Shown here in pieces: positions 2,958 to 54,684 of a stretch of DNA of 64,000 nucleotides. The stretch is from positions 5,120,543-5,184,542 of the forward strand of contig NC_049997.1 of the NCBI RefSeq assembly GCF_000003815.2, read 5' to 3'. Position numbers and translations under genes: made by a program. The notes below the pieces were generated by a model that was given only the letters and a program-made list of their open reading frames with translations, had not been told where the DNA came from and did no database searches. The first letter of the stretch is position 1. Every line of letters begins with the position of its first letter. The DNA comes from Branchiostoma floridae. Lineage: Eukaryota > Chordata > Leptocardii > Amphioxiformes > Branchiostomatidae.

Positions 2958-5900
2958 TTAGACCATGGCACAAGGTGCATCTGCGTTCACGTAAGCCTCC
3001 AGTATGATCTTGTCATCCTTGATGTATCCCTTCTGTGGATCACACAGCTCGGGCCACGGCATGAAGTCTGGGCATCCACAGCTGTTGTTCTTGCTGTGAA
3101 AGACGTGTCCGAACTTCCGTTTGTACATCTTGACACCATTCTTCTGCGAAATCAACCGCAGCTCGACTGATACACAACAAGACCAGAAGCTGCTGGAGTC
3201 GGCATCAACATCACACTGCAGGTAGACACCGAGGCTGTTGTGGTGCGGTGGGGCACTGCAGCCAGGCATGGCCATTATTTTCCAGGGTAGGCCACAGATG
3301 AAAACGGTATGGCTAAACTTCCTCCCCAACAGCTTGCTTACGTTTTCAACAGTGAAACGGAAAGTTGACTGAGTCTGCAAGTTCTTCGCATTCTTCGGTA
3401 CTTCTTCATTGAAAATGTTGCGAACGATGGTTTCCTTCATGAACTTAGGAGCATCTGCCTTCACGTAAGCCTCCAGTATGATCTTGTCATCCTTGATGTA
3501 TCCCTTCTGTGGATCACACAGCTCATCCCACGGAAAGAATCCTGCATACCCCCAGCTGTTCCCCTTGTTGTAGAAGACAACTTCATATTTTCGCTCGTAG
3601 GTTTGAACTCCATCCTTTTGTGGAATCAATCGCATCACAACTGATGCCTTGCAGGACCACAAGCTTTTGGAACCATCATTACATTTCATGAAAAAGGCTA
3701 GGCTCTTCTTGTTGTCATTGTGCTCAGGCCTGGTTTCTATTTTCCAAGGCAGATTTCGGATGAAGACTGCAGGACTGACCTTGCTGTTCTTACTCAGCTG
3801 GCTGAAGTTGTCAACTGTGAAACGAAAGGTCGCCTCAGCTCGCGATTTATCTTCCTCTTCTTCATCCTTCTTCTTCTGCTGTGTCATCACCTCAAACATA
3901 AGGCAATTGATGTCATCAGGAATGTCCGGATCCTTGGTGGGACCTTCAAGCAGAGACTCCAGCCGCGTTGTGACATCAGAATACACGTTCATGATGTCAA
4001 AATCACTGCCGTGCTCCACAACTTTCTGTGCAAAGTCCACTGTGCTAGACAGACTGTCTAAGGTGCTCTCAACACTGTCTGCTGTAACAGAGAGCTGCCC
4101 AAAACGCTCTGTTATGATTTCTGCTAACTTTTCTTCCAGTTCAGTCTGCTTACGTTTCACAAGGCTAGTCAAATACTTGATCTCTTCTTTTGCAGCTACA
4201 TTGATGTCGTCTGCAGCTTTCTTCCAAGTTGTGTGCAGTTCATCTTGTCTCTTAGCTACAGCTCTTGCCTTGTCTTGGTATTTTGTGATCTGCTGCCTGG
4301 CAGCTTCCAGCTTGTTTTGGATTTTTGCTCTGACATCACACACTGTATCTGCCAGGTAGCCATACGTGTGGTTCTTGTGTTGCAGTACTGTGCAATCTCG
4401 ACAGATGGGGTGCTTGCACGTCTCACAGTAGAACTTTAACTTCTCATCCTCGTGTTTCGGACAAATCGGCAGTGATCTTGACTTGAGCAATCCCGTCTTG
4501 TTGATCAGCTGCTCTTTAAGCTCCGCCACACCGATGACTTCGTGACCGCGCGTACGCTTACCTCGACGGTGGGCACAAGCACACTCATCACACAAGAACT
4601 CTTCACAGGGGACACAGCCGTGATTAGCCACTTCTTCTTCACAGTTATCACACTTCACTTTGTCATCCTCCTTGCTTACCAAACTCTTGTGGGTCTGAAC
4701 TGTGTCACTCAAGCTCTGCACAAAGAAGTTGTTTTTCAGGAAAGCAACACCACCCACTGGTAGTGAGGTATCAGTCCGACATGTGGGACACTGAAAAGTG
4801 TCCTTCGCATCATCTTGCTGTTCAACAAGCTTCTTCAGACATCCCTCACAGAAGGTGTGGAGACATGGCAGGACCTTGGGATCTTTAAAGGGTTCCAGGC
4901 AGATTGTACACTCCAGAAAGGCGCCCGAAATTTTGCTAAGTATGTCATCTCCCTTCGTTTCTTCCTTTGACATTGAACTAGTAGTAGTACTCTTCCTGTA
5001 ACAAAATGATTCAGTTAAGTTAGAGTAATGCATTTCTTGCTAAGTGCTTACAAAGTTTTAAATAGCTATTTCTTACAATGTGAATACACAATGAGCCATT
5101 GGATAGAAAGTTAAGCTACATGTAACAGAGCTCAAAATACCACCTGCATATGCAGGTTAGTGCAGGTAAAATTGGGATATGTGCAGGTATTTCTGGTGTC
5201 TACCTGCACCTAACCTGCATTGATCCATGTACATGGTTTTATACATATCCTATGGTGTAGGTGCATGTGGATTGTTATTAGCTGCATTGACTGTTACCAC
5301 CTATTAAGAGTTAGACCCATACTTCCTACATTCAGTGGTGCAGGTAAAATTTGCCTTGTGTAGGTAATTGTCAATGCCACCTGCACCAGTGCATGTATGC
5401 AGAAATAAGTATTTCGAGCCCTGTGTAAGTACTGTAAATGCAGAAACTTTTACGGTAGTTTTATGTTCGCAGTTTTCGCAGTGACCACTTTAGGCCTAGG
5501 AAAAAAAATGTTGTGTCTCCTGTTTCAGTCCTGAAAAAATTAGGGTCGGTAGGTAGGGATCATCTTTCTTTTTCTTTTTTTTTTTTTTTAAAGACTTTGG
5601 TCCCAACTCTATAGCCTGAATCTGGCCTGGCAAATACAGTTTACAAAGTAAAAGTGAAATGCACGATGGCACAGGAGCAAATTCTACAATACACACAAGT
5701 AGATTGCAAATGTCACTTTGAGGATGTCCTGCTCTTCAACGAATGTTACCAGCAGGGCTGTCTCCAGGACCCATCCCTCCATCTCAGGACTGAAATCTCC
5801 TTGTTGGGACAGAAAAAAATATTACCCTATCCGTCCCAAAAATATGAACTTCATGACATTAAACTGTTGTAAATTTATTTCCTGACCTTAAAATGTCACG

Positions 5901-12626: not shown

Positions 12627-12669
12627 TTTGTTGGCACACAACGGACGACACTTTCGCAATCGTGCTAAC

Positions 12670-14683: not shown

Positions 14684-17600
14684 GTGAGATACTGTCATCA
14701 TTTTTCATTATATTTTTATGAAAAATAAATTATGATACTTTGGAGATTCCTATGATACTGAGGAAACATGATGGGACCGTCTTTCTGAAATATGTTGATA
14801 GGAGAGCTAGGGCCGGATGCTGTTGAGGGAGGGGGGCACGCAAGTACAGTTTCGTGTGTTCAGTAACACTTCTTTCCTGTATCAAGTACGGTGGAAATTT
14901 TACTTTCGTCTTGCAAGTATTATCGACACGCTCAGCATGGCTGCTGTTTTGGAAATAATCCATAAATTTTGCATCGAAACTAGGAGAATAAAGGCAGCAT
15001 TTGCAAGCAAACGCATGATGTTTCCCTTCACGTTTTGTTTTAGCTGCCAAACACGGAGGCAGCCATCTTTTCTGTTTCAACTTTTGAAACATATGCTTTC
15101 TGATAATCTTTGATCATATTGAAAGCTTAACTCGCTGATAATTTTTTTTCAAAATCAGCTTTGGATCGATGTGTCGTGTTACACCACTGTGATCACCCTT
15201 GGTCAAGGGATTGGTAAGTGAACAAGGAGCTTTTATCAACTTGATAAAAGCTCCTTGCCATAACCACATTAAAAAAAACACATGAACAATAGCCGCATAC
15301 GAACAATAACTTTTTACACTCAGGTGAACATGTTCATAGCATAAATAATTGATTAAAATCAACATATTGGACAACATTTCAGAGTTACAAACTGTGCATA
15401 TAATGGCTAAGTGTTGATGGCACTACTGGCCATCGGTAATTGCTTTGTTGTTGAGATAGATTGTGTAATGAAGGAAGGACTTGCTAAGCCTCGTAGTACG
15501 GGCTTTCGGTACACTAATGGAGCTAGAGTTTCTAAGTGAGAGTCCTGTGGCTCCTGTTCTTTTTGGTGGTACCAAGTCATGCAGGGGGTGGTCTTCCCTG
15601 AGCATGCGTTCGAACAGCTGTACTGCTGCCTCCTTCCGTCTCACTTTGTGTGGGCAGGTCGGGTACGTTCAAGATGCTAAGCGTAAGTGCCAAGCTGCTC
15701 AGCAGTAGTGCCAAGACACATTTTCTCCTGTAAAGAGAACACATTTCAAAGAATGCGTCTCAGAGCCTGCTCAGAGCGGGGAGTCCAAGACAGCTTGTCG
15801 CAGTGTGTCTCCAATCTTCTATGTAATGTAATACAGTCCATCATGGAGCTGTGCTTACAGTAAGGCCATGTTGATTTGATTATATGGTTGACAGCCTCTG
15901 GGAACCTCAAAACTGATGTGAGTGTGAGAATTAAAAAAGAAAAAACCTGCGACCAAAAAAATTTCCTTTCCTTATGGAATATGAGTCTGGAAGGCTGAAC
16001 AAATGACTGAGCACACATGGTGGTATGGTATACTGAACAATAGATTCTTCACTTTTGTTATTTCATATATTCTTCTTCTACCTTGGAATTGATGGTAGCA
16101 TTCTATGGTGTTTGTTTGCAATCTATGTAGCATATATTTGCCCATTTTTTACTTTTTACAGTATGCTTAAAATGCTAAGGCTGTCTTGAGACATCTCTCG
16201 CAGAGACGTCTCAACAAACTGCTTTGAGGAGCTACTTTTAGCTATCGTACTTAATCAGGGCTCGAAATACCACCTGCGTATGCAGGTTAGTGCAGGTAAA
16301 TTTGGAGCTGTGTAAGTATTTCTGGTGTCTACCTGCACCTAACCAGCACTGGTCCATGTACTGGGTTTTATACATAAATGTTCTATGATCACCTGATGTG
16401 TGAAGAAAAAATAGCAATGCATTGTTCCTGAACAATTTTATTGTGATTCACAATTCTTAAGTTCAGAGTGGTACAGGTAAAATTTGTCTGGTGCAGGTGA
16501 TTTTTTATGTTACCTGCACCAGTGCAGATATGCAGAAAAGTATTTTGAGCCCTGCTTTATGTAAGTTGTAGCACACAGCACTAACCCATCCCAATTGTGT
16601 TTTTGCAGAAAAAGTTCAGAGCCCACAGAAGGCGCAAAGGCTGGAGGAGAAGCAAAGGCAGATGCCATACTCAGCAAGATTTCGGGTGAATTTCTTGAGT
16701 GTACAATCTGCCTGGAGCCCTTTAAAGATCCCAAGGTCCTGCCGTGTCTCCACACCTTCTGTGAGGGCTGTCTGAAGAAGTTCATTGCACAAGATAAAGT
16801 GAAGAACAAGTTTTCGTGTCCAACATGTCGGACGGAAACTGTACTTCCCAAGGGTGGAGTTGCGAGTTTCAAGAACAACTTCTTTGTTCAGAGCTTGAGT
16901 GACACAGTTCAGACTCACAAGAGTTTGGTAAGCAAGGAGGATGACAAAGTGCAGTGTGATGTCTGTGAAGAAGATGGGGCTAGCCAGGGCTGTTTTGTCT
17001 GTGAAGAGTTCTTGTGTGATGAGTGTGCTTGTGCCCATCGCCGTGCCAAACGTACGCGCGGTCACGAAGTCATCGGGGTGGCAGAATTGAAAGAGCAGCT
17101 AATCACCAAGACTGGATCCCTCAAGTCGAAATCCCTGCCGATTTGTACGAAACATGAAGACGAAAAGTTGAAGTTCTACTGTGAGACGTGCAAGCACCCC
17201 ATCTGTCGAGATTGCACGGTACTGCAGCACAAGAACCACACGTATGGCTACCTGGCAGATGCTGTGGTGGATGCCAAGGCAAAGATTAAAAATAAACTGA
17301 AAGCTGCCAGGCAGAAAATCACAAAATATGGAGGAAAGGAATGCGCTGTAGCAAAGAAGCAAGCTGAACTGGACACGAGGAGTAAGAAAGCTTCAGAAGA
17401 CATTGATGCAGCTGCAGAAGAAAAGATCAGACGTTACAGCGACCTTGTGAGACGCAAGCAGACTGAACTGAAAGAAAAGCTAGCCTCCATCACAGCAGAC
17501 CGTTCCAAGCAGCTCTCTGCTACAGCAGACAGTGTTAAGAGCACTGTAGGCAGTCTGTCCAGCACAGTGGACTTTTCACAGAAGGTTGTGGAACATGGGA

Positions 17601-19189
17601 GTGACTTTGATGTCATGAACGTGTACTCTGACATCACAGGAAGGCTGGAGTCTCTGCTAAATGGTCCACTCCCAAACATTCCCGATGATATCAGTTATGT
17701 CTTGTTTGATCCTAAGCAAGGAAAGGAGCAGAAAAGAGCCATCATTGGCAACATTGTCGATAGAAAAATGCCCAAGGCAGAGTTGGAAGAAGAAGAAGAG
17801 TCACGAGAAGAGGCAACCTTTCGTTTCACAGTTGAGAACTTCAGCAAGGTCACTGAAGCCTGTAGTCCTGCAACGTTCATCCGCAATCTGCCGTGGAAAA
17901 TAGAGGCAGTGCCTAAAGAAGACCCCGACAGCCAGCCACCAAACAATAAATCTCTTGGCGTTTACTTGAATTGTGATGTAAAGTCTTGTAGCTTGTGGTC
18001 TTGCTGTGCTACAGTTGAACTGAGGTTGATACCACAGAAGATAGGGGTAAAGACAGTGCGAAAGAAGTTTGAACATGTCTTCTACAGTGATGAGAGAAAC
18101 TGGGGATTCCAAGAATTCATGCCCTGGCACGAGGTGTGTGATCCACAGAAGGGATACATTAAGGATGACAAGATCATACTGGAGGCTTATGTGAAGGCAG
18201 ATGCACCTTGCGGTGAGAAGGAATTAGCCTCTGACGTCGATGAAGACATACTGGAGGAAGAAAAAAAGGAGGAAGAGTCACAAGCCAATGCAAGCTTTCG
18301 TTTTACAGTTGATAACGTAAGCAAGCTCTCTGAAGTCCAGCTCAGTCCTGCAACGTTTATCCGCAACCTGCCTTGGAAAATAGAGGCTGTCTCTGAAGAA
18401 GATCCCAACAGCCAGCCACCAAACAATAAAACTCTTGCCGTTTTCTTGAAGTGTGATGTTAACTCAGATAACTTGTGGTCCTGCCGTGCTTCGGTTGAAC
18501 TGCGGTTGATACCACAGAAGAAAGGGATAAAGACAGTCCAAAAAGAGTTTGAACATGTCTTCTACAGTGATGAGGACAACTGGGGGTTCCAAGACTTCAT
18601 GCCTTGGCACGAGGTGTGTGATCCAAAGAAGGGATACATCAAGGATGACAAGATCATATTGGAGGCCTTCGTTAAGGCAGAAGCCCACCGCGGCTTGAAG
18701 AAACTCATCATTGGCAAATTTTTCAGCAAAGAAATACCAGAGAAGGAGGTAGAGGAAGAAGATGAGTCGCGAGCGGATGCGACCATTCGTTTCACTGTGG
18801 AAAACTTCAGCAAGATGGAGAATGATCAGCATAGCCCTGTAGAATTCATCCGGAATCTGCCCTGGAAAATAAAAGCTGTGCCTGACCACTGTTCTGACAG
18901 CCAACTGGCTAACAAGAAGAGCCTGGCAGTTTATCTACAGTGTGATGGCAACACCAACAGCTTCTGGTCTTGCCGTGTGTCAGTCAAGTTTCGTTTGATA
19001 CCACAGAAAGGTATAAAGACTCATACTATGGAGACAGAACATGTCTTCTACAAGAATGGTGGTAACTGGGGGTTCCCGAAATTCATTCCTTGGGATGATG
19101 TGTGTGACCCACAGAAGGGATACATCAAGGATGACAAGATCATACTGGAGGCTCACGTGAAGGCAGATGCTCCTCATATCTTTGACTAA
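14673..19189 (+). CDS. TRM-B: TRIM-type E3 ligase with three USP7-like MATH domains (exons 14673–14683 and 16609–19189)
   Basis: Intact 863-residue protein and the best model of the family. RING C3HC4 uses C35, C38, C50, H52, C55, C58, C74 and C77. B-box 1 is at about 120–156 and B-box 2 at about 183–214. The coiled coil runs about 225–375. MATH modules are at about 405–539, 566–698 and 729–863. Each module is preceded by an acidic linker, and the genomic spacing between equivalent points is 480 and 489 nt, so linker plus MATH is the duplicated unit. The groove motifs are NWGF in all three. In USP7 the position before Trp is Asp; here it is Asn. The expected role is ubiquitin transfer to MATH-selected targets by a coiled-coil dimer. 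There is no transmembrane segment or signal peptide, so it is cytosolic or nuclear. The upstream exon, not the in-frame TTG at 16595, supplies the start. Confidence 0.92.
15223..15257. repeat. Perfect 35-bp palindrome in TRM-B intron
   Basis: Arms CAAGGAGCTTTTATCAA and TTGATAAAAGCTCCTTG around a single C. No other copy seen. Confidence 0.9.
15864..16020. mobile_element. Partial H-b MITE in TRM-B intron
   Basis: GGCCATGTTGATTTGATTAT with the following CTCTGGGAACCTCAAAACTG matches the left end of the 33945–34721 element. The right end is lost. The rest of this intron (14684–15860) shows no supported gene. Confidence 0.6.
16256..16554. mobile_element. CAGGGCTCGAAAT-family MITE, copy 2 (TRM-B intron)
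   Basis: Ends CAGGGCTCGAAATACCACC and TATTTTGAGCCCTG. The interior is close to copy 1 at 5126. No convincing target duplication. It ends 54 bp before the TRM-B large exon. Confidence 0.75.
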
Positions 19190-20872: not shown

Positions 20873-21338
20873 NNNNNNNNNNNNNNNNNNNNNNNNNNNN
20901 NNNNNNNNNNNNNNNNNNNNNNNNNNNNNNNNNNNNNNNNNNNNNNNNNNNNNNNNNNNNNNNNNNNNNNNNNNNNNNNNNNNNNNNNNNNNNNNNNNNN
21001 NNNNNNNNNNNNNNNNNNNNNNNNNNNNNNNNNNNNNNNNNNNNNNNNNNNNNNNNNNNNNNNNNNNNNNNNNNNNNNNNNNNNNNNNNNNNNNNNNNNN
21101 NNNNNNNNNNNNNNNNNNNNNNNNNNNNNNNNNNNNNNNNNNNNNNNNNNNNNNNNNNNNNNNNNNNNNNNNNNNNNNNNNNNNNNNNNNNNNNNNNNNN
21201 NNNNNNNNNNNNNNNNNNNNNNNNNNNNNNNNNNNNNNNNNNNNNNNNNNNNNNNNNNNNNNNNNNNNNNNNNNNNNNNNNNNNNNNNNNNNNNNNNNNN
21301 NNNNNNNNNNNNNNNNNNNNNNNNNNNNNNNNNNNNNN
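20873..21338. other. Assembly gap (466 N)
   Basis: Unresolved bases directly abutting a 160-bp tandem array, so the gap probably contains more repeat units. Confidence 0.99.
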
Positions 21339-25554: not shown

Positions 25555-28500
25555 ATGCCGAAAAGGTACAATATTCTCATTATTTCTTACAATATTTTTA
25601 TGCAGAACCGATTCTGATATGTCCTAGATACCGAAAAAAGATTGTAGAACTATTTTTGTGCATGTTTTACCTAGGAATTTCGTCAAAGTTTACGGATGCT
25701 GTCACAGAGTTTCGGGGAAGGGGAGGGGGGCAAAGCTAAGGAAAGTTGTGGGTGAGCGGAACACACGTGTGCATTTAACGCGTTTTCGGCAGAGTATTCT
25801 GACAGGATTGCTGTCAATTGGGTTTTTTCTTGCACTGTTAAGAAGATGCTCTTGTCGATGATCTACTACTAGTTTAGCGTGCATTTAAAAACAAGATGAA
25901 CTTGGTAAATCTATGTGGGAAGTTTGTGTGATACATGCATGATTACAAGTTTCGCTGTGGCTATTGACACACTGAGTGTGCTCATAGCCAAACAGGCTAT
26001 TGACACACCGAGATGCCAGCCAGCCAATCAGAGCTTGTAACATGACTTTCCCGACATTATTTTACACAAGCAACAGTTGATTAGACATTGTTCGGAAGAT
26101 TAGACATTGGAATCTTTGAATCTTGGAATGAAAGGACGTATTCAAGTTATGCCCTACATCTCTATACCTGTTAATACAGGGGTTCGATGAAAGAGCTGGG
26201 CTGGGCCCCTGGCCTGTCTACATGGCCTGTCTACCTGGCCTGGCTATCACGTCAGGCCACCAAGATCCCCCCATTCATACCCTCAGAAATTTTCAGCCTC
26301 TCATCTAGCTGCGCCCTCTAGTGGAATATAGACAAATTGCCGAGATTGTGTACTTAGTCCATTGTCAAGACACCTACTAGCAAGATAAACTGATATCTAT
26401 TCAATGTTTACTTGTCTGAATTTAAATTTCTATTGGTCTGCAAATAGATAAACAACAACATTGAGGGAGAAAGAAATGACGCTTGTGGTTGATGTTGATG
26501 TTGAGAACAACGATACCATACTCACACTGTAACATTTGATCTAGTGGCAAATGTTACAAGTCAACAGTCAGTTTGGCCAAACAAAGGAGGTCATATTTAG
26601 GTCACCACGTAACTGCAGGCCTGGGTATGGCAGAAACGGGTGCTGTCAGAGGATTGCACTTTGACTTGACATTTTCCCCTTTACGTTATCAAAGGTTTGA
26701 AGATTTGCTTTAAAACAAGGCTGTAATACAGCAGTTTGTTTTTCATTTAGCAAATGTTAGTTTAACACACTGCTTTAGGGATCTGAGCCATCTGCTGTTT
26801 TCTCCCCCAGACAACTCTCTAAGGGAACCAAGCATGTGACCCCGGTCATCTCAGACGCTCCACCTGTCATGTCTCTTTTAATAAAGCAGCAACAGGCGCT
26901 TGTCCAGGGACAAAATAGTTGATTGAGAGGCATCGTAATTGCTACTCTTTAGCCCTGTCAGGGATCTCAGCCTGGCCTGTCAGCCCTGCCCCTTGACTGG
27001 CCCTTTGAGGAAGTAGAAGTATATTAGACGTATAACTCTGTCTGGGAGGTATTAGGCCTTTCTACCAGCCAGAAATACAAGTACCACAGTTTGTGTCTTT
27101 TTGATCTGTCATCGACTAGCCAGTACAACAAAAAGAGAAGTAATGTGCATGACGTGCTGTTTAGAGGTAAAAACAACACTTTCCTCTCCCAGTCCCCGAA
27201 GCCAACAATCTCCACCCATTCCAACACAGAGTTCCCCAGCTGTTTCTCTGACCAGACCAAGGATACTCTGCTCTTCGGAAAACTTTGTACAGAAAGTACT
27301 GGAAAGTCTTAAATGACCGACTTGCATGGTACGATCCTAGATACATAGACAAGAAGAACAGATTGGATTAGGGAAGTAACGTTATACCTGGATGGATTAG
27401 ATGGAAGCAAATGCTTGGTTCCTGGTAGACACAGTATGTACATGTATTTGAACAATTCAAAGGAAGAAAATTTACTTCATTCACTATCATTTAAAGCAAT
27501 GGTATTTATATTGTAGGTATGTGTTCACAAATTTGCAAGTAATATTGGTGTTGAAAGCATAAGAAGCATAAGATTTATTTTTTTTACATAGCCTAACTGA
27601 ATGTTGTTGTTTTTTTACAGGAAAAGTTCCAGGTCTGTACAAGGCTCAAAGTCTAAGGAAGAAACAAAAGCAGATGCCATACTCAGCAAGATTTCTGGGG
27701 ACTTCCTTGAGTGTACAATCTGCCTGGAGCCCTTTAAGGATCCCAAGGTCCTGCCGTGTCTCCACACCTTCTGTGAGGGTTGTCTGAAGAAGTTCATTGC
27801 ACAAGATAAAGTGAAGAACAAGTTTCAGTGTCCGACATGTCGAACCGATACTGTACTTCCTAAGGGTGGAGTTTCTAAGCTCAAAAACAACTTCTTTGTC
27901 CAGAGCTTGAGTGACACAATTGAGACTCACAAGAGTTTGGTTAGCAAGGAGAATGACAAAGTACAGTGTGATGTCTGTGAAGAAGATGGTGCTAGCCAAG
28001 GCTGTGTTGTCTGTGAGGAGTTCTTGTGTGAAGAGTGTGCCTGTGCCCACCACCGGGCCAAACGTACCCGCAGTCATGAAGTTGTTGGTGTGGCGGAGCT
28101 GAAAGAGCGGCTGATCACAAAGACGGGATCACTGAAGTCAAACTCACTGCCAACTTGTCAAAAGCACAGGGATGAAAAGTTGAAGTTCTACTGTGAGACG
28201 TGCAAGCACCCCATCTGTCGAGATTGCACGGTACTGCAGCACAAGGCCCACAAGTACGGCTACCTGGAGGATGCTGTGAGTGATGCCAGGGCAGAGATTA
28301 AGAACAAGCTGAAAGCTGCCAAGAAGGAAATCACAAAATACAAAAACAAGGCAAGAGCTGTAACCAAGAAGCAAGATGAACTGTACACAAGGAACAAAAA
28401 AGCTGCAGATGGCATCAATGCAGCTGCAAAGGAAGAGATCAAATATCTGACTGGCCTTGTTAAAGGTAAACAGACTGAACTGAAAGAAAAGCTAGCCTCC

Positions 28501-29238
28501 ATCACAGAAACCCGTTCCAAGCAGCTCTCTGCTACAGCAGACAGCATTGAGAGCACCTTAGACAGTCTGTCCAGCACAGTGGACTTTTCTCAGAAGGTTG
28601 TGGAACATGGCAGTGACTTTGATGTCATGAATGTGTACTCTGACGTCACAACAAGGCTGGAATCGCTGCTTGAAGGTCCAACCCCAGACATTCCTGATGA
28701 CATCAGTTACATCATGTTTGAGCCAACGAATAGTACAATACAGAAGAAGGAAAAGCTAGTTGCCCTCGGGAATATTGTTGAAGAAGAAGTTGAAGATGAT
28801 GAGATGGAAGATGATGAGATGGAAGATGATGAAGAGGCGCAAACTGAGGCGACCATTCGTTTTACGGTGAACAATTTCAGTAAGCTGAATGAGCAGAAGT
28901 CCAGTCCTGCTGTGTTCATCCGCAATCTACCTTGGAAAATACTAACCAGGCCTGATCATAAAGACAATAAGAAGAGCCTTGCCATTTTCCTCCAATGTGA
29001 TGCTGACTCCAAAAGCTTGTGGTCCTGTCGAGCATCCGTTGAGCTGCGGTTGATTCCTCAGAAGATTGGCATTCCAACTTATAAACGGAATTATCAACGA
29101 ACCTTCTACAGGAAGGGGGACAACAGGGGGTATGCTGAGTTCATTCCTTGGGATGATGTGTGTGATCCGCAGAAGGGATACATCAAGGATGACAAGATCC
29201 TACTGGAGCCTAGCCTTTTACCTGCATTGCGATGCTGA
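25555..29238 (+). CDS. TRM-C: TRIM-type E3 ligase, prematurely ended after MATH1 (exons 25555–25565 and 27621–29238)
   Basis: The first exon ATGCCGAAAAG joins the acceptor TTTTTTACAG at 27620, giving M-P-K-R-K-S-S and a 542-residue product. RING is at about 35–77, B-box 1 at about 120–156, B-box 2 at about 183–214, the coiled coil to about 375, and MATH1 from about 414. A duplicated acidic linker (EDDEM repeats) precedes MATH1. At about 29208–29212 the end of MATH1 (DKILLE) is fused to the middle of MATH2 in another frame, and translation stops 11 codons later. MATH1 lacks its last strand and has Arg where other modules have the groove Trp (DNRGY). The RBCC part looks fully functional, so the gene may still make a shortened ligase. 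Assembly collapse of repeated MATH units is an alternative. Confidence 0.82.
25566..27620 (+). other. TRM-C intron 1
   Basis: Donor GTACA at 25566 and acceptor TTACAG at 27620. No supported gene inside. A CTGGCCTGTCTAC short duplication occurs near 26210–26245. It is half the length of the TRM-D intron, which carries extra repeats. Confidence 0.75.
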
Positions 29239-29977
29239 TTTGAAAAGCTTGTGGTCCTGCCGGGCATCCGTGGAACTGCGATTGATTCCACAGAAAGACA
29301 GAGTTCAAACTTACAAGCAGAATTATCAACATGTCTTCTACAACAAGGGGAAGAGCTGGGGATTCCCAGAATTCATTCCTTGGGATGAGGTGTGCGATCC
29401 ACAGAAGGGATACATCAAGGATGACAAGATCATACTGGAGGCTCACGTGGAGGCAGAAGCTCCTCGTGGCATGAAGGAAGTGATCCTGGGTAACATTTTC
29501 AGCAAAGAAAACCTGGAGGATGAGATGGAGGAAGAGGAGGAGTTGCAGACTGAGGCAACCTTTCGGCTCACCGTGGATGACATCAGCAAGCTCAGTGAGA
29601 ACAAGCTAAGTACTGCAGCAGTGTTCATTCACAACATGCCCTGGAAAATACTGGTCAAGCCTGAACATGACCCCAATGCCCAACAGGAAAACAACAATAG
29701 CCTTGGTGTGTACCTACGTTGCGATGCCGAATCCAATAGCTTTTGGTCATGCCGTGCCTTGGTAAAGTTGCGGTTGATCCCACAGTATAATGGTGTACAG
29801 ACAGTTGAAAAGACCTTTAACAACATCTTCTACGGCAAAGACAACTGCAGCTCATGGGGGTACCCAAAATTCATGCCCTGGCACGAGGTGTGTGACCCAC
29901 AAAAAGGATACATCAAGGATGACAAGATCATAGTGGAGGCTTATGTGAAGGCAGGTGCTCCTTGCATCATGGTCTAA
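29213..29977 (+). pseudogene. Out-of-frame MATH2 (C-terminal half) and MATH3 of TRM-C
   Basis: Open in another frame. It begins inside MATH2 (SLAFYLHCDAD) and keeps the groove Trp in both modules (KSWGF, SSWGY). It runs through MATH3 to the natural end APCIMV and stop. The start of this piece abuts the last good codon of MATH1 with a shared GAG at the junction. It is probably not translated unless a sequencing or assembly error hides the missing 250–260 nt. Confidence 0.85.
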
Positions 29978-34721: not shown

Positions 34722-35163
34722 TAACATTAGATTCTGACATTGGACCGTTCTAAACTGAACGTCCCGGTCCGGCGAGGTCACATGCGGTCACGCAGTGGTT
34801 CGAATTTCATGTTCGACCAAACTTGTCACAATATATCTGCCTACGTTGGCCAATTTATTTACAACTCATTGCAAAAACGAGATAATGCTTTATGATACTC
34901 ACTAGATTGTTTATACTGTTATACTATATTACATTAGTTGTTAGTTATTTGTATTAGTATATAGTTGTTCACATTGCCATACATTGTAACTGTTACAATT
35001 GTTGCGCAATAAAGTTCTTCATGCCTTAAACTGCCTGAGGTTGCTTTCTGTATTAGCGAGAGTGTGTCCGAGACAAACTAGTAATAATTTCAATCACTTG
35101 CAAGTGTGCAGACCGCTCTTAAAATAGTATGAATGGTGTAAAGGAACAAAAATCAATAAGAAA

Positions 35164-36792: not shown

Positions 36793-39700
36793 TCACAAAG
36801 GACAAATAAAAGAACAGAAGAACTCTAGTTCCTGTACGATTATGTCCCCGGGTGGATGAAGTATATCCTTATGCCAGTGCTGTGCATGGGTCATTTCCCA
36901 TGTGTCTACGAGAACAACGTTCATACCGCGGAACATGTCTCTCATTATCAAGTCCAGCTTGTACGCCAACCAATACCCGAATGTGATCTCATCGCCATGG
37001 CACGCATTTGCGGCCTTGATTACTACCAACGTTTCGGGACTCCTGTGCAGTAAACGTTGTATTGCAGCACGGACGGCTTCCATTCTTTTCGTGTAGACCT
37101 CCACAGGGTACGAGACGAAATGTGCCCACATGGTGATACCGACCACATCGTTCGGTCCTCCTTCAATTTCATCGATGGCGTTCGCGACGTACTTGATGAG
37201 AAATGTCTTGATGGAGCCACGAAGAGGCGGTCCGTGGATTAGAAAGTTTGCCGTTATGTTATTAACAGGATCTCGGGCGAGCAATGGTCCTGTTGCGTGT
37301 ATGGCTTCAGGAATATGTGTTTCGGTCATATTTATGATTCTGACCAAATGTTCCCACCACTGCCGTATGGTAGAGTCGCCCATGAAATACAAAGTTTTCC
37401 CCTTCAGACATTGCTGCCAGCCGGTCTGGCTGGAGAAATGTCAGTTCTTACAGACGAGAGAGTTCCACACGCCGTTCCGATAGAACCCAGATATCTGTGG
37501 AGTGGCCAGTCCCCGGACACACCGTCTGCGATTGGCCAAAGGATCTCGCCCTGTGTTAAAAATTAGAATGCGCACATGTCATATCCAGTTGTGCCGGCAT
37601 TGGAAGAACATTAGCCAATCAGATACTCCTCCTTTGGTTTCACGGAGGGAAACTTACCAACCAATGAAACTGCCTCTTAATAGTAAAACGTGACATGATT
37701 GGTCGATAGAGGGGAAGCATCCGATTGACTGGCTAGATATGACGCAACGAGGCGCGCTCATCATAGGTCGGTATGGCATACAGTCGACATTTTCTACCCT
37801 ACTTAGTTTTTACCCTCATCCCTTACTCCTTTCTTCGTAGAATTTTTCAAGATACAAAGCCTTCGACATTTTGTGTCCGGATATATAACTTTCTGGTGTG
37901 CCTTATCATCTATGATGAAAGGGAGAATTCAGCTTACCTTTTTTAACATGAATTGTAGATGGAGATCCAGAAATTGATTTATTCTGTGTACTGTAATAGT
38001 AGTAGAAATACAAAATGTTGTAAAAATTCCAGTATACAGATACAGGCATTATTGTACACGTGTTGACTTTTTAGGCTGCATTAAACAACTACGATTCTCA
38101 TTTAAGTTGTCGCCAATGGTTTATCTTATTGATTATTATTTTTTTATTATAAAGAGTTTAAAGATTCGGTTTCATTATGATTACAGATTCCTTCCTGAAA
38201 TCTTTATAACCATTGCATGTGTGGTGTTTGCATGTTAAAAAACGAACTGCTTTGACTTTGACTTTGACTTTATTCAGATCCACTTTTAGCTATTACAACA
38301 ATGTCAAACTTAAACTCAGATATCTCAGTTACCATGCTATAACTACCATTCATGAAAATAAGCATAGTAGGTGTATTATGACGTTTTCTTAAGTAGCTAA
38401 TTAAGGGTCAATGATCCACCTCGAGGTGTATATGACCGGTGTCGTTAGGCCTCGTTATTTCACATAACGACCGAATAAACCCATCTAGTGGTTATAGCAA
38501 ATGAAATTAAAGGCGGGTCGTTAACGTTATCATCATGAATATTCCTTTAATACTATACTTGTGTTGGATTTCTGAGAAATGCACATAGACATAAGTCGTT
38601 TTGGTACAAAATTGTAGATTACAGATGCCAGTGGGAACCGAATTCCCGCAGAGAATTTTCGTAACATTACAATCTTGGTATGTCAAATCTTTTCTAATTC
38701 TTTCTCAACGGTACATTCCTCCCTACTGGTTGTGATCATTCCTCCTTGATGAGTGTTGTCCTGATTGGTCAATGTTCTATGACTTCGCATTTTGACTTGA
38801 TAATGGAATGGGATGATCAAACACCGGTGTTGAATGAATTAAACACTAGTGTTTAATGAATTTCTATGCGTTGCGGCGTCATAGAGATAGATATGAGGCT
38901 TTCTGGTCGGCCAAAGTCGCATGGCCATATGATGATAGAGCAATGTGACTTTCTCTACCGGGCTCGCTATTTAAACCAAGCACAACGGTTCACCCCTATT
39001 CCTGTAATAATGTGTTTGGGTTAATGTCGCACAACCGACATTTCAAAAATATTAACATTGACCGTTTACATACATGTCGTACATATAGTAAGGTTCCTTG
39101 GGCACAACCAGGGAGTACTTACTTCCAACGTTTCGATGTCTGTCAGGCACCACCATCGGCTATAAGCATGCATCAGCAAGAAACAGATCCAGATCTAGAT
39201 TCTAATCCCGATGATGGTGTCTGACAGACATCAAAACGTTGGATGTAAGTACTTTACTATATGAATAATTGCCAACACGGTGAAAGTTATTTATGGATGG
39301 TACCTGTCGTACAGTTGGCCCCCTTTAACGTTGTTGTACCCATATCTGCCATGGTAGCCTGATGTGTTACAAGAAACGTTGACGGGTTTCACACAATACC
39401 ACCAGGCGCCTGCATGCGGGTCCGAGTAGTTACAAACTGCACTGGTCTTCTTAAAGATGGCCGGGTCTACGTTACACTTGGTTCTGATAGTGCCGTTTCC
39501 CACTATGTAACGTCTTTGGAACGTTACTAGGTCAATAGGATATAATCGTTTAATTCTTTCTTTAAGATCGATAGCCTGCCGTGGGTGGACCAGTTGGATT
39601 TTGATGGTGACCTCCCCCTCCCACAACAGTCGGAACGTCGCCGTGTAAGTACCGTTCTGGTGGTCCGTTATGATACCGACTGCACCAGATCCCTTTCTAT

Positions 39701-40741
39701 CCATTTTGGTAAGAATAGACGCCCGAAATAAATCGCCAATGTTTGTTACTATGTTGTTTCTTGTATCTTTGGCAGAGATAACAATATGTAACGTATCTCC
39801 GACAGAATATTGCCTGCCTGACTCAGAAGCCAAGGAAAACTTGAGCTGTTGCAAATAAACATCAGCAGAAAACGGTTCGGTCGTTTGTAACACCGAAAAA
39901 GTTGGTATGATTGTTTTTAACACCAGAGAAAACGGTTCGTTCGTTTTCAGCACCGGAAAAAATGGTTTAGTCATTTTTAACACCGGGTTCTCAGTTACAG
40001 CCGAACCATTCCACCTATTTCGAAATGAAGGTATGTCATTGGAAGATTTTGCCGGGAACCATTGCGTTTTCATGCTTTGCTCGCTCATCCAGTGGGGGTC
40101 CTATAAATAAATAAAAGAAATGGCGTCAGTCACCCATTGCTTACTATAAGGTAAGAGCACAGGCGGTAGGCCAAGGAATTGTTGTCGTGGATGTTACGAG
40201 TGTCGACCCTAAAATGAAGTACTAGTACATGTACTCGGGATCGACCGCCCGAGCGGGTGCCGAACGTCGGCGAGTTCCGAGCGAAGGAACCAGAAGGTCG
40301 CCGAAGGCGATCAACACCAGAAGGTCGCCAAAGGCGACCAGCGAGCGTAGCGAGATTTTTCCAGTAAGGAGAGCTAGCTCAGCTCAAAGGATGGCCGGAA
40401 GTCCAGCGCTGATGGGGGCGTTTTATGAGCGCAGCGGGTTGCCATTGTCTGGTGGCTCGGCTTGAGTGCCATTTTTTTTTGTGTGGCACCACTGTGTACT
40501 AGTACAGTATTTCCTCTTTGTTGCAGCCAACAACAATAATTCCGAGGCCTATTGCCCATGGTAAGAGGCGGTGAAAGAGTCTGTTCCGCTGACAAAATGA
40601 CAAGAAGTTTGATGAAGGATTATTATATACCTTGAATAAGGTGTAGTACAGTAGTAATGCTGCTATACCCAGTGCGAGTACTGTACCAAACCACCTGCGA
40701 ATTCGTCCACCCTCAAGCAATTTCCTTCCACCGTTCGCCAT
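36793..40741 (-). CDS. NXPE-family (neurexophilin / PC-esterase domain) gene with in-frame TGA; at least three exons
   Basis: Exon 1 (40631–40741) encodes M-A-N-G-G then a signal anchor (VLALGIAALLLYYTLF), giving a type II membrane or Golgi protein. It is spliced in phase 0 at TTCAAG/GTATAT. Exon 2 (39304–40100) starts after TTATTTATAG and holds a filamin/Ig-like segment (GTYTATFRLLWEGEVTIKI), then Cys-rich sequence (WWYCVKPVNVSC). It ends at GACAG/GTACC in phase 2. The last exon (from about 37550 down to 36793) holds the PC-esterase motif GDSTIRQWWEHL and a C-terminal D-W..H block near HPPGDII. The exon 2 and last-exon phases do not match, so one small exon is probably missing from my model. 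A TGA at 37441–37443 interrupts the conserved stretch before GDSTIRQ. Confidence 0.75.
37569..39303 (-). other. NXPE intron region with small inverted-repeat elements
   Basis: Contains TTGACTTTGACTTTGACTTT near 38254, resembling a LINE tail, and an 18-bp palindrome around AACACTAGTGTT near 38842. A missing linking exon should lie here, but I could not identify it with confidence. Confidence 0.5.
39113..39250. mobile_element. Short inverted-repeat element in NXPE intron
   Basis: Ends TACTTACTTCCAACGTTTCG and, inverted, CGTTTTGATGTCTGTCAG-type sequence (AAAACGTTGGATGTAAGTA). Non-autonomous; family unknown. Confidence 0.6.
40229..40465. repeat. GC-rich block with direct repeat AGAAGGTCGCCRAAGGCGA
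   Basis: AGAAGGTCGCCGAAGGCGA and AGAAGGTCGCCAAAGGCGA occur as adjacent direct repeats within NXPE intron 1. The open frame across it looks compositional, not coding. Confidence 0.5.
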
Positions 40742-48514: not shown

Positions 48515-48710
48515 TTAGACCATTATGCAAGGAGCATCCGCTTTCACATAAGCCTCCAGTATGATCTTGTCATTCTTGATGTATCCCTTTCGTGGGTCAC
48601 ACACCTCGTGCCAAGGCAAGAAGTTCCAGTAACCCCATGAGCTAAGCCTCCAGTATGATCTTGTCATCCTTGATGTATCCCTTCTGTGGATCACACACCT
48701 CGTGCCACGG
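48515..48710 (-). pseudogene. Remnants of the TRM-D MATH region beyond the LINE
   Basis: On the minus strand, after the LINE, the interrupted MATH1 resumes (PWHEVCDPQKGYIKDDKIILEA) and meets a stop. Within 3 bases it is fused to the end of the last MATH module in another frame (SSWGYWNFLPWHEV ... APCIMV stop). The two PWHEV sites are 94 nt apart where 480–492 nt is normal, so about 390 nt or more is missing. Confidence 0.85.
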
Positions 48711-49136
48711 CAAGTCAAGTCAAGTCAAAGTTTATTGCACAACATTTGTAGAACGGGTACAATGTAAGGCAAACTTAGGTTACGTTATACTACATTATAT
48801 TGTACATGTATAAGACAACTAGCAGTATACAAGTAGTATAATTAAGCTAATAACTTAACAATAGATGACGGCTATGCACTATTCGAAGAAACACAATGTG
48901 CAATGTGAATCAAATCCAGAATGATGCGGCAGACTACTTACTAGTACAATGTAACATAAATCTAGACTACTTACAAAAATCTGGTAACATACTACATTCG
49001 GGCTCCATTTTTTTTTATACAAACACTATGATTGAAAGGAGACACAGCGAGGATCTTATTATCTAGTATATACATTATTATGACAATGTATACAATGTTA
49101 AGTTGTTATCATGAGGTTTCTTTTCCGCATAGATGT
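48711..49136 (-). mobile_element. LINE 3' fragment inserted in TRM-D MATH1
   Basis: Same family as 22896–24440, in the same orientation as TRM-D. Its tail is (CAAGT)n-like, CAAGTCAAGTCAAGTCAAAG on the plus strand. The insertion splits the codons for FMP and WHEV. The flanks share TGCC, a short possible target duplication. Confidence 0.9.
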
Positions 49137-52100
49137 GGCATGAATTCTGCATAGCCCCTGTTGTTGTCCCTGTTGTAGAAGACATGTTGATAATTCAACT
49201 TGTGAGTTTGAACTCCTTCCTTCTGTGGAATCAACCGCAGCTCAACTGATGCCCTGCAGGACCACAAGCTTTTGGAGTCAGCATCGCATAGCAGGAAAAT
49301 GGCCAAGCTCTTCTTGTTGTCCTGGTGATTAGGCCTGGTCATTATTTTGCAAGGCAGATTGCGGATGAAGACAGCAGGACCGAACTTCCGCTTATTCAGC
49401 TCGCTGAAATTTTCCACCGTAAAACGAAAGGTCGCCTCTGCTCGAGACTCTTCATCTTCTTCCATCTCATCATCTTCAACTTCTTCCTCAACAATGTTCC
49501 CAAGGGCAACTACCTTTTCCTTCTTTTGCATTGTGCTATTTGAAGGCTCAAACATGATGTAACTGATGTCATCAGGAATGTCTGGGGTTGGACCTTCAAG
49601 CAGCGATTCCAGCCTTGTTGTGACATCCGAGTACACATTCATGACATCAAAGTCACTGCCATGCTCCACAACCCTCTGTGAGAAGTCCACTGTGCTGGAC
49701 AGACTGTCTAAGGTGCTCTCAATGCTGTCTGCTGTAGCAGAGAGCTGCTTGGAACGGGTTGCTGTGATGGAGGATAGCTTTTCTTTAAGTTCAGTCTGCT
49801 TACCTTTTACAAGGCCAGTCAGATATTTGATCTCTTCCTTTGCAGCTGCATTGATGCCATCTGCAGCTTTTTTGTTCCTTGTGTACAGTTCATCTTGCTT
49901 CTTGGTTACAGCTCTTGCCTTGTCTTGGTATGTTGTGATTTTCTTCTTGGCAGCTTTCAGCTTGTTCTTAATCTCTGTCCTGGCGTCACTCACAGCATCC
50001 TCCAGGTAGCCGTACTTGTGGGCCTTGTGCTGCAGTACCGTGCAATCTCGACAGATGGGGTGCTTGCACGTCTCACAGTAAAACTTCAACTTTTCATCCC
50101 TGTGCTTTGGACAGGTTGGCAGTGAATTTGACTTCAGTGATCCCGTCTTGGTGATCAGCCGCTCTTTCAGCTCCGCCACACCAACAACTTCATGACCTCG
50201 TGTGCGTTTACCGCGGCGGTGGCCACAAGCACACTCGTCACACAAGAACTCTTCACAGACAACACAGCCTTGGCTAGCCCCATCTTCTTCACAGTTATCA
50301 CACTGCACTTTGCCATCCTCCTTGCTTACCAAACTCTTGTGAGTATCAATTGTGTCACTCAAGCTTTGAACAAAGAAGTTGTTTTTGAGCTTAGAAACTC
50401 CACCCTTAGGAAGTACAGTTTCAGTTCGACATGTCGGACACTGAAACTTGTTCTTCACCTTATCTTGTGCAATGAACTTCTTCAGACAACCCTCACAGAA
50501 GGTGTGAAGACACGGCAGGACCTTGGGATCCTTAAAGGGCTCCAGGCAGATTGTACACTCAAGAAAGTCTCCCGAAATCTTGTTGAGTATGGCATCTGCT
50601 TTTGTTTCTTCCTTAGACTTTGAACCTTTCACGGACTTGGAACTTTTCCTGTAAAACAAAACCTTCAGTTAGGCTGGGTAAAAGTAATTTGCATGGCTTC
50701 ATAAGTGCTTCCTAAGTTTTCAATACCAAAATTTCTTGCAATGTTAACACATATCTATGAAATAAATACAATTACTTTAGAATGATAGTACAGGAACCAG
50801 TTACAATAAAACAAATAAAACTATGGGGAAAGGTGTTCACATGTTTTGAGGCTTATTGGTCTAACTCTAAGAAAATAACAAGAGCAAAGTAGAGTAGAGT
50901 TGATAGTCATTTTTATAAAATTTCCACAAACTTGGTCTAACTTAACAGAGGCAGTTAGTGTTGTTTCCGTGAAGGTAGAATACTCCACCAAACCAACTCC
51001 TTTGTAGCAATATGGACCATTGTTTTGAGTATTGTCCATCCACAAACAATTATACTAGTACTAGTAGTAGGTCAATGTTCAGGTCCAGACCTGGACCTAA
51101 TCCTCTAGGCCCAGTCCATACCTATACCTGAATTTTCTGTACAGGTACAATGTACCCACCCATAGAAGTACACATAGTTCAAGAGAAGGTAAGTTTTGTT
51201 GACCTTTGTGTGGTAAACAATTACTGCTCCTGGACCATCTATGCAAAAACTTATTGGGAACAGGTTTTCTGCGCGTTAAAAATCTGCACGCGCGTTAAAC
51301 ATTTGCGTGTTAAAAAATAAATTTCTTGAAATATGTCAGAAAATGTGCTGTGATTAATTCTTAGGCAGAAAAATGTACCCTCATCATATGACTTTCCATC
51401 CATTACATGAATTTTTGTTTTGAAAAAGCCCCCGATTTTAAGATCCCTTGGGAATAGGTTAATTTGCATATCCAGAATATTTCAAAATCTTGTGAATTTG
51501 ACACAAATACATGGAAATATTACAAATTTGAAGCTTTGTATTGTAAAATATAACAGCTTGAGGCTTTTCTCAAGCAGATTGTTTCACATGCAAATTTCAA
51601 CCTCTCTTGTGCGTTTAAAATGAACATTTAAAAATCACTTTAGAACTCCTGGAATATTTACAGAAAGGGATATTGTACTCTAGAATGCAACAATATGATA
51701 CTTAATTCCATTTTGTGTCATCTTTTTTAAGCATTTAAGTTTAAAACTGCAAAAAGTTTTCGAACCCCGAAGGGAATCAGCTAATTTGCATATTTTAAAG
51801 CACAGATTTTTAACGCGCAAGTTTTAACGCACAAATTTTTAACGCGCACAAAACCCCAACCCAACTTATTAATTTGCTTTAAATATGGTGCACGAACATA
51901 ATCAAACCAAATTGTTTTCTGCAAATAACAATTGGTTGACAATAAGGCACTATTTGTGTATCAGACAATAAAAAGGCACAAATTAAAGCCCATGGAAAAT
52001 TAAATACACTAGTTGAAGGTTGCTGTCATGTGACCTAAAAAGTAAAGGTTTACAAGTGTTTGGCCCTGAATCAAGAGGTTATTGGTTGAAAACCTGACAT

Positions 52101-54684
52101 GCCCTGATGTTGTGCATTTGTGAAGGGCACTTAATCAATAAAATTTCTTCACTTCACCAGGATGACAAATGAGTACCTAGGTTCTGTTGTGGACATTCTC
52201 TGGATTAGACTTTACATGGAGGTCCTGTGTTTATAGAGAGCCACATCTGTGGCACATAAAAGGAACCTACCACACTTGTCAATAACAGGAAAGGTCTTTG
52301 CCTGTAGGAGTGAATGACAGCTTAGAGTGACTCTAAGCTTTCATTCACTCCTACAGGCAAAGACCTTCTCAGTGTGCATTTTTTTTAAATTCAGGTACAG
52401 GTCCAGTTCAGGACCATTTCAGGTCCTGGACCTAATTGTTTGTGAATGGGCGATGCTCAAAATAACTTTCTACAAAGGAGTCAGTTTGGTGGAGTATCCT
52501 ATCTTCACGTAAGCAATGCAAGTTGCCTCTGTTAACTTAGATCAAGTGAAACTTAAGCAACAAAATCTGGAAACTACATTGTTGAAACCAAAACCTGAGA
52601 CTGTAAAAAATGCCTTTCTGAAACTATTTAGTAGTTACTACAGCAACACTAAAAACCATGAACTTTCATGTATACTATCAATTTCTTTGCCATCTAGAGA
52701 CTTTAGGAAAAATCACCTGGAAGTTTAGTGGCAGAAGCCATTCAGGCATTTATGCCACATAAAATTTGGCATAGGCTACAAAAGCCAACAAATAAGTCTT
52801 TTTAGACATGTAAAAAGAAGTACATATTACTACTAGTACTACAGGTGGGTTCTGGTACAGAAAATGCAGATACAGGTAGGAGTAAAGTTCAGGTCCAGAG
52901 GGAATCAGGTCCTGGTCAGGTGATAAAATGTGTCGACATATTGTGGTCATTATCTATTCAGTCTGAAGTCCGGCCCACTTTTTTCAGGTCCTATATTTTC
53001 AAACCAGTCCAGCAAGAAAAAACAGTTTGTACCCTACTGGTATCCACCCCTTCACAAGGATGCTACGTGTTGTATACAACAAACCTAGGTGAGATCAGAC
53101 AAAAAACAAAGAACTGTATGGGACTCTTTCACCTACTGTATCTCTACTGAAGTCAGGTGACGCTGGCTAAGCCTTGCTGGACATGTTACTCTACACAGAG
53201 AACCAGCCGGTAAATTGCTCCTTTGGCCCCAGAAGCAAAAAGGAGAAGAGGTCGTCCATACACTAAAGAACTGTATTGAATTAGAGACTGGACTATGTGA
53301 TAGGGACCTATCTGTAATGATGAGTGATAGATCACACTGGAAGCGAAACTTTGTAAGTGCTACAACTCAATAAGAGTATGACTATGTATGTATGTGTATG
53401 TGTGGTCATGTATGTATGGTACCCACACCTAGGCTAGTACCAATAAAATATAAGTATTACATTAGTAATTAAAACATGGTGTTTTCCCTATCCACATAAC
53501 ATACCAGACTGACAACAGCTGACAAGTAGGAATGGATGACGGCCAAACGGTGATCTGACCCAAGGAAGACCTGTGACCGAAGCTGGTGCAGAATACACCA
53601 TGTCGTACAAAATGTCATGCCAAGGGAACATGCGTTTCAATGCAAAATGCACCAGTAAAACATTTAGTAATCTGGTATGTATTAGAAATAGCCAACACTA
53701 GTATTAGGCCACACCAATTTAATTTCTTGGTTTAATTTCACGGATTTTTTCATAAAAAATATGGAGCGACAGGGCGGAAAAAAAAATTGTAAAATGGTTG
53801 GGGTAAAGATAAGGGCTAATCCAAAACACAAAGTTGAAAGAATCAAAAGTTTTCAGCTTGAAAAAAGTACAAAAACACTATTACTGTACAGTAACAGCAC
53901 CTGTTCGTTGAAAATTACAAAAGTGGTGTCAGTTTTTATGTTTGTCCTTCTTCATGAATGAAAAATATAACTGCAATAATAATAACACCCACATTTAAGG
54001 AGCTTATAATATATAGGCTAATTTGCTACACCAGAAAGTTGGTGAATGGTTTCATTAATGGTGAAAATTTGCTGAGTAGTATTTCTTTTTATTCTCCAAA
54101 AAATAGGAGCGAGCAAATCCGTGAACCAATCAATTAAAATGGTATGGCCTTAGACTAAGAGTAGAATGTTGTTTACAACTGTTCATTATCGATTGTATAT
54201 CACTTATGTTTATACAATGTACTTGCAATTAGCCCTTGGGCATGAACTTGCAAGACTTCTTATATTGTGGATGTGTACTTACAATTCCCCCCTTGCAAAA
54301 CAGTAACCTGATGCATATATTCCAAAAAGTTCACACTTACTCTAGTAGATTTACCAAGATCATCTTGTCACATAACAAAATAGATTACTGACAGGAGCAT
54401 ACTATTAATACTGCATGAAAAAAATATTATTATCCTGTCAATAGCCTCGGCCAAAAACGCACACTTGGCATGTGTAATTCGAGCACCCAAAACTTTTCTT
54501 GGCCTTGCCCCCCTCCCCTTCCCCGAAACTCTGTGACAGCAATCCGTAAACTTTGACGAATTTCTGAGGTAAAATATCCACAGACATAGCTCTATAATGT
54601 TTTTCTGGTATCTAGGACATGTCATTATTGGTTCTACATCGAAATATTGTAAGAAATAATGAGAATATTGTACCTTTTCGGCAT
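49109..54684 (-). CDS. TRM-D: TRIM-type E3 ligase truncated by a LINE (exons 54674–54684 and 49109–50648)
   Basis: First exon ATGCCGAAAAG with donor GTACA; intron of 4.0 kb; acceptor TTTTACAG at 50649. The product is 516 residues: RING (C35 to C77), B-box 1 at about 120–156, B-box 2 at about 183–214, coiled coil to about 375, and most of one MATH from about 405. It ends in eight LINE-derived residues (HLCGKETS) after EFMP. The groove Trp is Arg (NNRGY), as in TRM-C MATH1. It is very close to TRM-C in the RBCC part and is its inverted duplicate. The RBCC portion has no lesions, so a dominant-negative or shortened ligase is possible; pseudogene is equally possible. Confidence 0.82.
50649..53706 (-). 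other. TRM-D intron 1, proximal part
   Basis: No supported gene. Holds the hairpin at 52291–52367. GTTCAGGTCCAGACCTGGAC-type phrases around 51075, 52395 and 52880 resemble internal sequence of the H-b MITEs, so older copies may be present. Confidence 0.45.
52291..52367. repeat. Near-perfect 77-bp hairpin
   Basis: Arms of about 37 bp (AAGGTCTTTGCCTGTAGGAG inward) with one mismatch and almost no loop. Likely a tiny foldback element or replication-generated inverted repeat. Confidence 0.9.
53707..54149. mobile_element. Harbinger-like MITE, family H-c (443 bp), in TRM-D intron
   Basis: Ends GGCCACACCAATTTAATTTC and ATTAAAATGGTATGGCC, with TTA at 53704–53706 and 54150–54152. Same length and interior as 8038–8480. 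Confidence 0.85.

Follow-up and report, generated by a model that had tools for sequence, protein, structure and literature searches.

TRIM proteins are defined by a RING, B-boxes and a coiled coil (RBCC) in this order, and a C-terminal MATH domain is found in TRIM37 (Class VIII), which the available text of Marín 2012 (PMC3503706) places in Subfamily A and describes as having one B-box. The same text reports 'a few' TRIMs of the lancelet Branchiostoma floridae, assigned to Subfamily C, which possess two B-boxes, two USP7-like MATH domains in tandem and an intronless open reading frame (ORF), are unrelated to TRIM37, and have MATH domains that group with those of "MATH UCH" proteins. Here, genes of this type are described from a 64 kb window (the whole stretch of DNA analysed) of contig C19 of B. 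floridae, the analysis covering this one genome of 513 Mb. With two B-boxes, tandem MATH domains nearest to USP7 and an RBCC of the Subfamily C kind, they very probably belong to Marín's family, and some may perhaps be the same genes. The two-MATH architecture is thus already in print since 2012. An earlier sequence-only reading of this DNA knew of no described family with three such modules, and the phrase 'three math' is absent from the main text of that paper (the search for prior descriptions covered open-licence PubMed Central). Compared with the available text of Marín 2012, what is new is the three-MATH form, broken copies, sister genes which lack the MATH part and have a donor-like GT at the point of its start, the absence of the inner introns of USP7 from the copies, a repeat unit which includes the tail of the ligase, and a rewritten peptide groove. 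The reading that we favour, with somewhat better than even confidence, is that these are multivalent TRIM-type RING E3 ligases, built in a TRIMCyp-like manner, whose reader domains have diverged toward peptide clients of their own.

The window has four RING–B-box1–B-box2–coiled-coil loci with USP7-type MATH domains, as seen from the ORF list and Pfam. They are referred to as genes A to D, with the following parts:

2958..5039 (-): main exon of gene A; RING, B-box1, B-box2, coiled coil and two MATH domains in an open frame of 693 aa
3441-3836 (-): MATH1 of gene A
2961-3365 (-): last MATH of gene A
16565..19189 (+): main exon of gene B; RING, B-box1, B-box2, coiled coil and three MATH domains in an open frame of 874 aa
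17807-18214, 18284-18694, 18773-19180 (+): the three MATH stretches of gene B found by Pfam
27601..29238 (+): first part of gene C; RING, B-boxes, coiled coil and MATH1 without its last strand, ended by a frameshift
29207..29977 (+): remainder of gene C in another frame, comprising the second half of its middle MATH (29207-29467) and then an entire last MATH (29549-29974)
49109..50668 (-): gene D, encoding RING, B-boxes and coiled coil, with its MATH1 truncated at the 3' end
48713..49136 (-): repeat element inside MATH1 of gene D; 424 bases with a tail of TTGAC units and TGCC at both sides
48524..48712 (-): MATH remnants of gene D beyond the insert, in two frames, from protein matches and the sequence

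Pfam RING, B-box and MATH domains were found at all four loci (MATH_2 E-values of 3.7e-45 for A, 2.3e-66 for B, 1.2e-18 and 5.7e-40 for the two ORFs of C, and 3.5e-11 for D), so the domain-profile check suggested by the sequence-only reading bears it out, as do genes A and B for its claim that the MATH had been multiplied in tandem on such a body. The zinc-ligand patterns of the RING, B-box1 and B-box2 are complete in all six MATH-bearing genes of the genome, while the coiled coil is a putative one, based on kinship and position. The cluster had been given as 2958..54684; its start stands, but it appears to end at about 50.7 kb, and no family match lies between 50.7 and 54.7 kb among the matches listed. 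Likewise, the range of one to three MATH domains is correct for what can be read, but the one-MATH forms (C and D) are damaged genes, as assembled. In gene C, the frame containing MATH1 runs for 545 codons before its stop, with the half middle MATH and the last MATH in another frame (its second ORF is listed as 29054-29977 on the plus strand). The repeat period here is 232 bp, which is not a multiple of three, in comparison to 480 bp in gene B, where MATH1-MATH2 form a tandem repeat with 85% matches, and the frame was therefore likely lost by a deletion that did not comprise a whole number of codons. In gene D, the insert interrupts MATH1 near its 3' end; 381 bases of it gave at least 50 matching pieces across the genome, itself included (40 of 128 candidates scored), with the best full-length matches outside the window reaching 97% among the matches listed.

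Further members were identified elsewhere in the genome. With gene B MATH3 as query, the 20 matches listed correspond to the window loci, a gene on contig C12 and another on C7, both with three MATH domains, and three exons on C215. As the sequence of the latter continues into a ubiquitin-protease part, it is taken as lancelet USP7. Within this gene (L030, 553-861), part of the second MATH exon and its acceptor region are present in tandem 2.7 times beside the used exon, with a 113-bp unit and 96% matches. The RBCC of gene B gave at least 123 matches (122 of 513 candidates scored), of which 14 are at 55% identity or above, the next by score being at 43% among the matches listed. Six of these 14 close relatives, spread over three contigs (C19, C12 and C7), carry MATH domains and eight do not. 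One of the eight, on C146, seems by eye to have kept an eroded acidic linker with no MATH, and for the other seven no USP7-type MATH was found nearby among the matches listed. The ligase body is under purifying selection, with a ratio of nonsynonymous to synonymous rates (dN/dS) of 0.17-0.28 over 15 pairs. In the RBCC tree (with C146 lacking the first part of its RING and C9:11.64 ending at an in-frame stop) the six MATH genes need two changes, and their forming one clade gives p=0.51 in the approximately unbiased (AU) test, or p=0.59 with C146; the tree does not decide between a single gain of MATH and a gain plus loss. Regarding other RBCC genes, two adjoining MATH-less ones on C9 (L065 and L075, at 12.609 and 12.603 Mb) share a TAA that is in frame and identically positioned within the coiled-coil region, and local expansions of TRIM-type RBCC genes are found at 19.19-19.29 Mb of C12, at 28.39-28.46 Mb of C4, and on C262 and C15. 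TRAF-type MATH matches are numerous on C378 and C168.

The MATH domains are of the USP7 type and not of the TRIM37 type, as judged from sequence comparison and as the sequence-only reading had proposed. In a tree of 22 rows, 14 TRIM copies fall together with lancelet USP7 and human USP7 into a single branch (support 98/97), with lancelet TRIM37, SPOP and four TRAFs outside it, and so the phylogeny, which had been named as a check, agrees. The copies share 55-65% identity with lancelet USP7 and 39-49% with its human counterpart, against 15-22% with lancelet TRIM37 (tree and identities exclude the half domain of gene C and use C MATH1 and D MATH1 without their foreign tails). Against solved structures, gene B MATH3 matched the USP7 TRAF domain with an E-value of 3e-33, SPOP with 1.7e-07 and TRAF5 with 0.85. 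A predicted model of B MATH1, built from six window MATHs (mean predicted local distance difference test (pLDDT) 75, predicted template modelling score 0.72), gave the USP7 TRAF domain at ranks 1-11 in the PDB (E-values 2.2e-12 to 2.1e-10, root-mean-square deviation 3.4-4.0), with SPOP following from rank 12 (1.2e-06). The RBCC of gene B is nearest to TRIM3/TRIM2 among solved structures (TRIM3 E-value 1.3e-35). The idea that the genes belong to TRIM37 (Marín's Subfamily A), or are decayed descendants of it, has in its favour that both are TRIMs with a C-terminal MATH. However, it is almost certainly wrong, being rejected by the MATH identities and tree and by the two B-boxes, with the RBCC also lying nearest to TRIM2/3 instead, and the available text of Marín 2012 (PMC3503706) concluded likewise. 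Lancelet TRIM37 itself has its different MATH split over at least four exons in the B. floridae genome.

The peptide groove is where the copies depart from USP7. The contacts of human USP7 are M100, M102, R104, E162, D164, W165, G166, S168 and N169 from a crystal structure and F118 and C121 from nuclear magnetic resonance data, as given in the available part of a preprint (PMC13142314); Y106 and R109, seen in one of three complexes there, were excluded. The letters at all 11 sites agree with the residue numbering used. Lancelet USP7 has the human residue at nine of these sites. In the TRIM copies, on the other hand, D164 is kept in 0/15, R104 and M102 in 1/14 each, M100 in 2/14, E162 in 4/15 and F118 in 7/15, with Trp165 retained in 9/15, Cys121 in 14/15 and Gly166 in 15/15. 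The change of Asp164 is a mild one, to Asn, in seven of the 15, and its loss could be one old event common to the copies, while the changes at R104, M100 and M102 require 7 to 11 steps on trees. Not a single copy unites D164, W165 and R104 as would a USP7-like groove for P/A/ExxS motifs.

The contact sites also vary among the copies themselves. Mean retention is 0.39 at the nine contact sites shared by human and lancelet USP7 versus 0.69 at the 75 other sites at which these two agree (permutation p=0.010; Mann-Whitney p=0.027), and entropy at the 11 contact sites is 1.81 versus 0.92 bits elsewhere (p=0.0026; 14 copies). The ratio of the proportions of nonsynonymous and synonymous differences (pN/pS) is 0.70 at contact sites versus 0.36 elsewhere, a value reached by one of 60 random site sets. 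When parsimony steps are counted on a tree from which the contact codons had been left out, the contact sites have 5.73 versus 3.07 (p=0.0023), and still 4.91 versus 2.54 (p=0.0011) with the 11 MATHs of the four intact genes (A, B, C7 and C12). Within an otherwise conserved scaffold, the groove therefore stands out as variable, its contact sites about twice as much so as the rest. A wider set of 21 groove sites gave stronger numbers, but as it was partly picked after variable sites had been seen, it was not used.

These results weaken the proposal of the sequence-only reading that such ligases might compete with or oppose USP7. In its full form this would mean that the MATH domains read the P/A/ExxS clients of USP7 and either ubiquitinate them or occupy USP7 binding sites. 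The domain is that of USP7 by descent, and the retained Trp165, Gly166 and Cys121 along with the mild change of Asp164 would suit such a role. Nevertheless, Asp164 and Trp165 are called essential for clients of the TRAF pocket in the accessible text of PMC6203733, and D164A or W165A is reported to lower binding of OTUD4 in that of PMC12047801. With Asp164, Arg104, Met102 and Met100 nearly all replaced, and with contact sites that vary from copy to copy beyond their departure from USP7, we regard antagonism of USP7 as unlikely, though worth keeping in mind. As the groove is unlike that of USP7 and differs among copies, clients of their own are to be expected and direct rivalry with USP7 is less likely.

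Another possibility is that the MATH arrays have no job, with former contact sites varying freely and the genes heading for loss. Two of the four window loci are broken, at C146 only an eroded linker appears to be left by eye, and pN/pS at the contact sites is below one, all of which would be consistent with relaxed constraint. However, the MATH domains are constrained outside the groove (dN/dS 0.23), the eleven MATHs of A, B, C7 and C12 lie in frames open over 693-874 codons, and the excess at contact sites persists in these intact genes, while general decay should spread evenly. This explanation is likewise considered doubtful.

It could also be asked if the MATH domains serve assembly or localisation, by MATH-MATH or MATH-partner scaffolding, instead of client capture. 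The MATH domains of TRAFs trimerise with their coiled coil, a precedent for such a role, and the likeness of MATH1 and MATH2 in gene B would fit also. But the peptide groove is among the variable parts, unlike a constant assembly surface, and the MATH of USP7 itself is a client reader according to the available text of PMC6203733 and PMC13142314. We consider this explanation very unlikely.

With regard to the origin of the fusion, the MATH of lancelet USP7 is spread over three exons, the first of which follows a phase-1 acceptor-like CAG/GT GAG (the slash marking the boundary), with two inner introns of phase 0. The sites of these inner introns are uninterrupted in 14/14 and 15/15 of the TRIM copies covering them, as is seen in TRIMCyp, where the captured domain is without the introns of its source. 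In six of the eight MATH-less members the RBCC ends with G[D/N][I/F]V and is followed by G/GT (GTA in five of the six), the two outside this count being C146 and one copy with an earlier match end. This G/GT fits a phase-1 donor. At the same place the MATH genes run straight into an acidic linker. The junction could be assigned in five of them, gene A having no recognisable motif there, and in three (B, D and C7) the codons up to the acidic stretch are as many as splicing of this donor to the acceptor of USP7 would give. The whole 14 linker residues compared with the USP7 exon gave p-values of 0.006, 0.053 and 0.10. Our reading is that the fusion occurred at or near a splice junction and was made or fixed in an intron-free state. 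At synonymous positions the TRIM MATHs differ strongly from USP7 (pS 0.73 outside the groove), indicating that the event is not recent, and for this reason the marks of retroposition by a long interspersed nuclear element (poly-A tail, target-site duplication) are unlikely to remain. At the other end of the genes, A-D and the C12 gene (five of six) have an acceptor-like site a short way 5' of the RING, pyrimidine-rich and with CAG at its end, while the C7 gene has an ATG where the other five have this site. Gene A has an ATG at SMSKEETK; in B and D there is no in-frame ATG before the RING in the ORF list, which together with the acceptor-like site implies a 5' exon for both.

The arrays themselves appear to have had a complex history. 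A motif of the RBCC tail, KE..LGNI, recurs before later MATH domains (shuffle p <0.025 in five of eight linkers and 0.087-0.19 in the other three), and so the duplicated unit was probably the tail of the ligase plus a MATH. Orthology of the MATH domains position by position was rejected for the first (AU p 1.1e-06) and middle copies (5.9e-22) and not rejected for the last (p=0.145). MATH1 of gene B groups with its own MATH2, and the middle half domain of gene C joins the MATH1 copies of genes A, C and D; the trees are weakly resolved within the TRIM group, and the placement of the C7 copies among the array lineages is weakly settled. As first and middle MATHs do not follow position-wise lineages, the arrays have probably been remodelled through duplication or conversion since the first of them was formed.

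In the favoured explanation, an RBCC body of the TRIM2/3 kind would have acquired its MATH from the USP7 of the same animal, in a form free of introns and joined at a splice junction or close to one, after which the unit of ligase tail and MATH was duplicated up to three copies, such genes now being located on three contigs. By analogy with what is known of TRIMs and USP7, ligase activity, dimerisation and peptide binding would be expected. Dimerisation through the coiled coil would bring four to six MATH grooves together, each of which would bind short linear peptides weakly while jointly they could hold a client with avidity, for the RING then to ubiquitinate. Each ligase, and each MATH within one, would most likely read its own motifs.

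A number of observations weigh against parts of this explanation. The pN/pS of the contact sites is below one, so positive selection is not shown and relaxed constraint would raise it too, and the retention of Trp165 and Gly166 suggests that some USP7-like binding may survive. In the model of B MATH1, much of the groove falls in the stretches at about residues 41-50 and 101-120, where the pLDDT is low (53-58). The TRIM MATHs do not form one clade apart from USP7 in the MATH tree, though such a clade is not rejected (AU p=0.097). Concerning the junction, just three of five have the exact predicted length, with that of the C12 gene shorter and that of gene C longer. The nine residues of the linker that precede the acidic stretch are no more like the USP7 exon than expected by chance (p 0.20-0.35), so their derivation from this exon is supported by spacing and not by sequence. 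The acceptor-like 5' site in five of six genes points to a 5' intron, and a simple retrogene of a whole mRNA is not proven. Finally, the two complementary DNAs cited in the available text of Marín 2012 (PMC3503706) are the sole evidence of expression.

The window also contains features outside this family. An NXPE-family gene lies between genes C and D (36793-37440 and 39291-40100, both on the minus strand; NXPE4_C E-value 1.3e-73, Neurexophilin 1.3e-15), and an ORF at 61580-62113 (-) has an SRCR domain (7.7e-35). The ORF at 35128-35568 (+) with a zf-RVT match (2.8e-07) is probably the end of a retroelement. A minisatellite with periods of 19, 38 and 76 bp, open in several frames on both strands, occupies 60695-61427, and runs of N, which may be assembly gaps, are present at 738-837 and 20873-21338.

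If the favoured explanation is right, these genes would be a natural case of a deubiquitinase reader turned into a ligase reader, whose origin can be followed through introns and whose groove has moved away from that of USP7, and would offer a test bed for new MATH groove specificity as well as an invertebrate-chordate parallel to TRIMCyp.

Among known systems, SPOP is a MATH-BTB protein which acts as a cullin-3 adaptor. It employs a MATH as substrate reader for ubiquitination, as the lancelet genes would, multivalent in its case by oligomers as far as the accessible sources describe it; its architecture is the BTB-cullin one, and its MATH is of another type (17-25% identity between full TRIM copies and lancelet SPOP). 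The N-terminal TRAF/MATH of USP7 is of the same domain family and the likely source; however, the TRIM-MATH genes lack the protease part and have D164, R104, M102 and M100 mostly changed. Marín's Subfamily C TRIMs share the two B-boxes, tandem USP7-type MATHs and intronless ORF, with two MATHs reported in the available text (PMC3503706) where the window family reaches three, while TRIM37 shares the order of RING, B-box, coiled coil and MATH but has one B-box where the window genes have two. The closest parallel in construction is TRIMCyp (TRIM5-cyclophilin A; PMC11764967, PMC2279257), described in the available text of these papers as a TRIM body joined to an intron-free copy of a foreign peptide-binding domain, with both retrotransposition and antiviral action reported. 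It is conceivable, if rather speculative, that the lancelet genes are a restriction-factor-like family in which a USP7 reader was taken up through RNA or at a splice site, in the way that cyclophilin A was in TRIMCyp, then tripled and diversified in its grooves, perhaps against pathogen mimics of USP7 clients. In contrast to the one cyclophilin domain of TRIMCyp, the lancelet genes carry up to three USP7 MATH domains, and their retroposition is a putative one.

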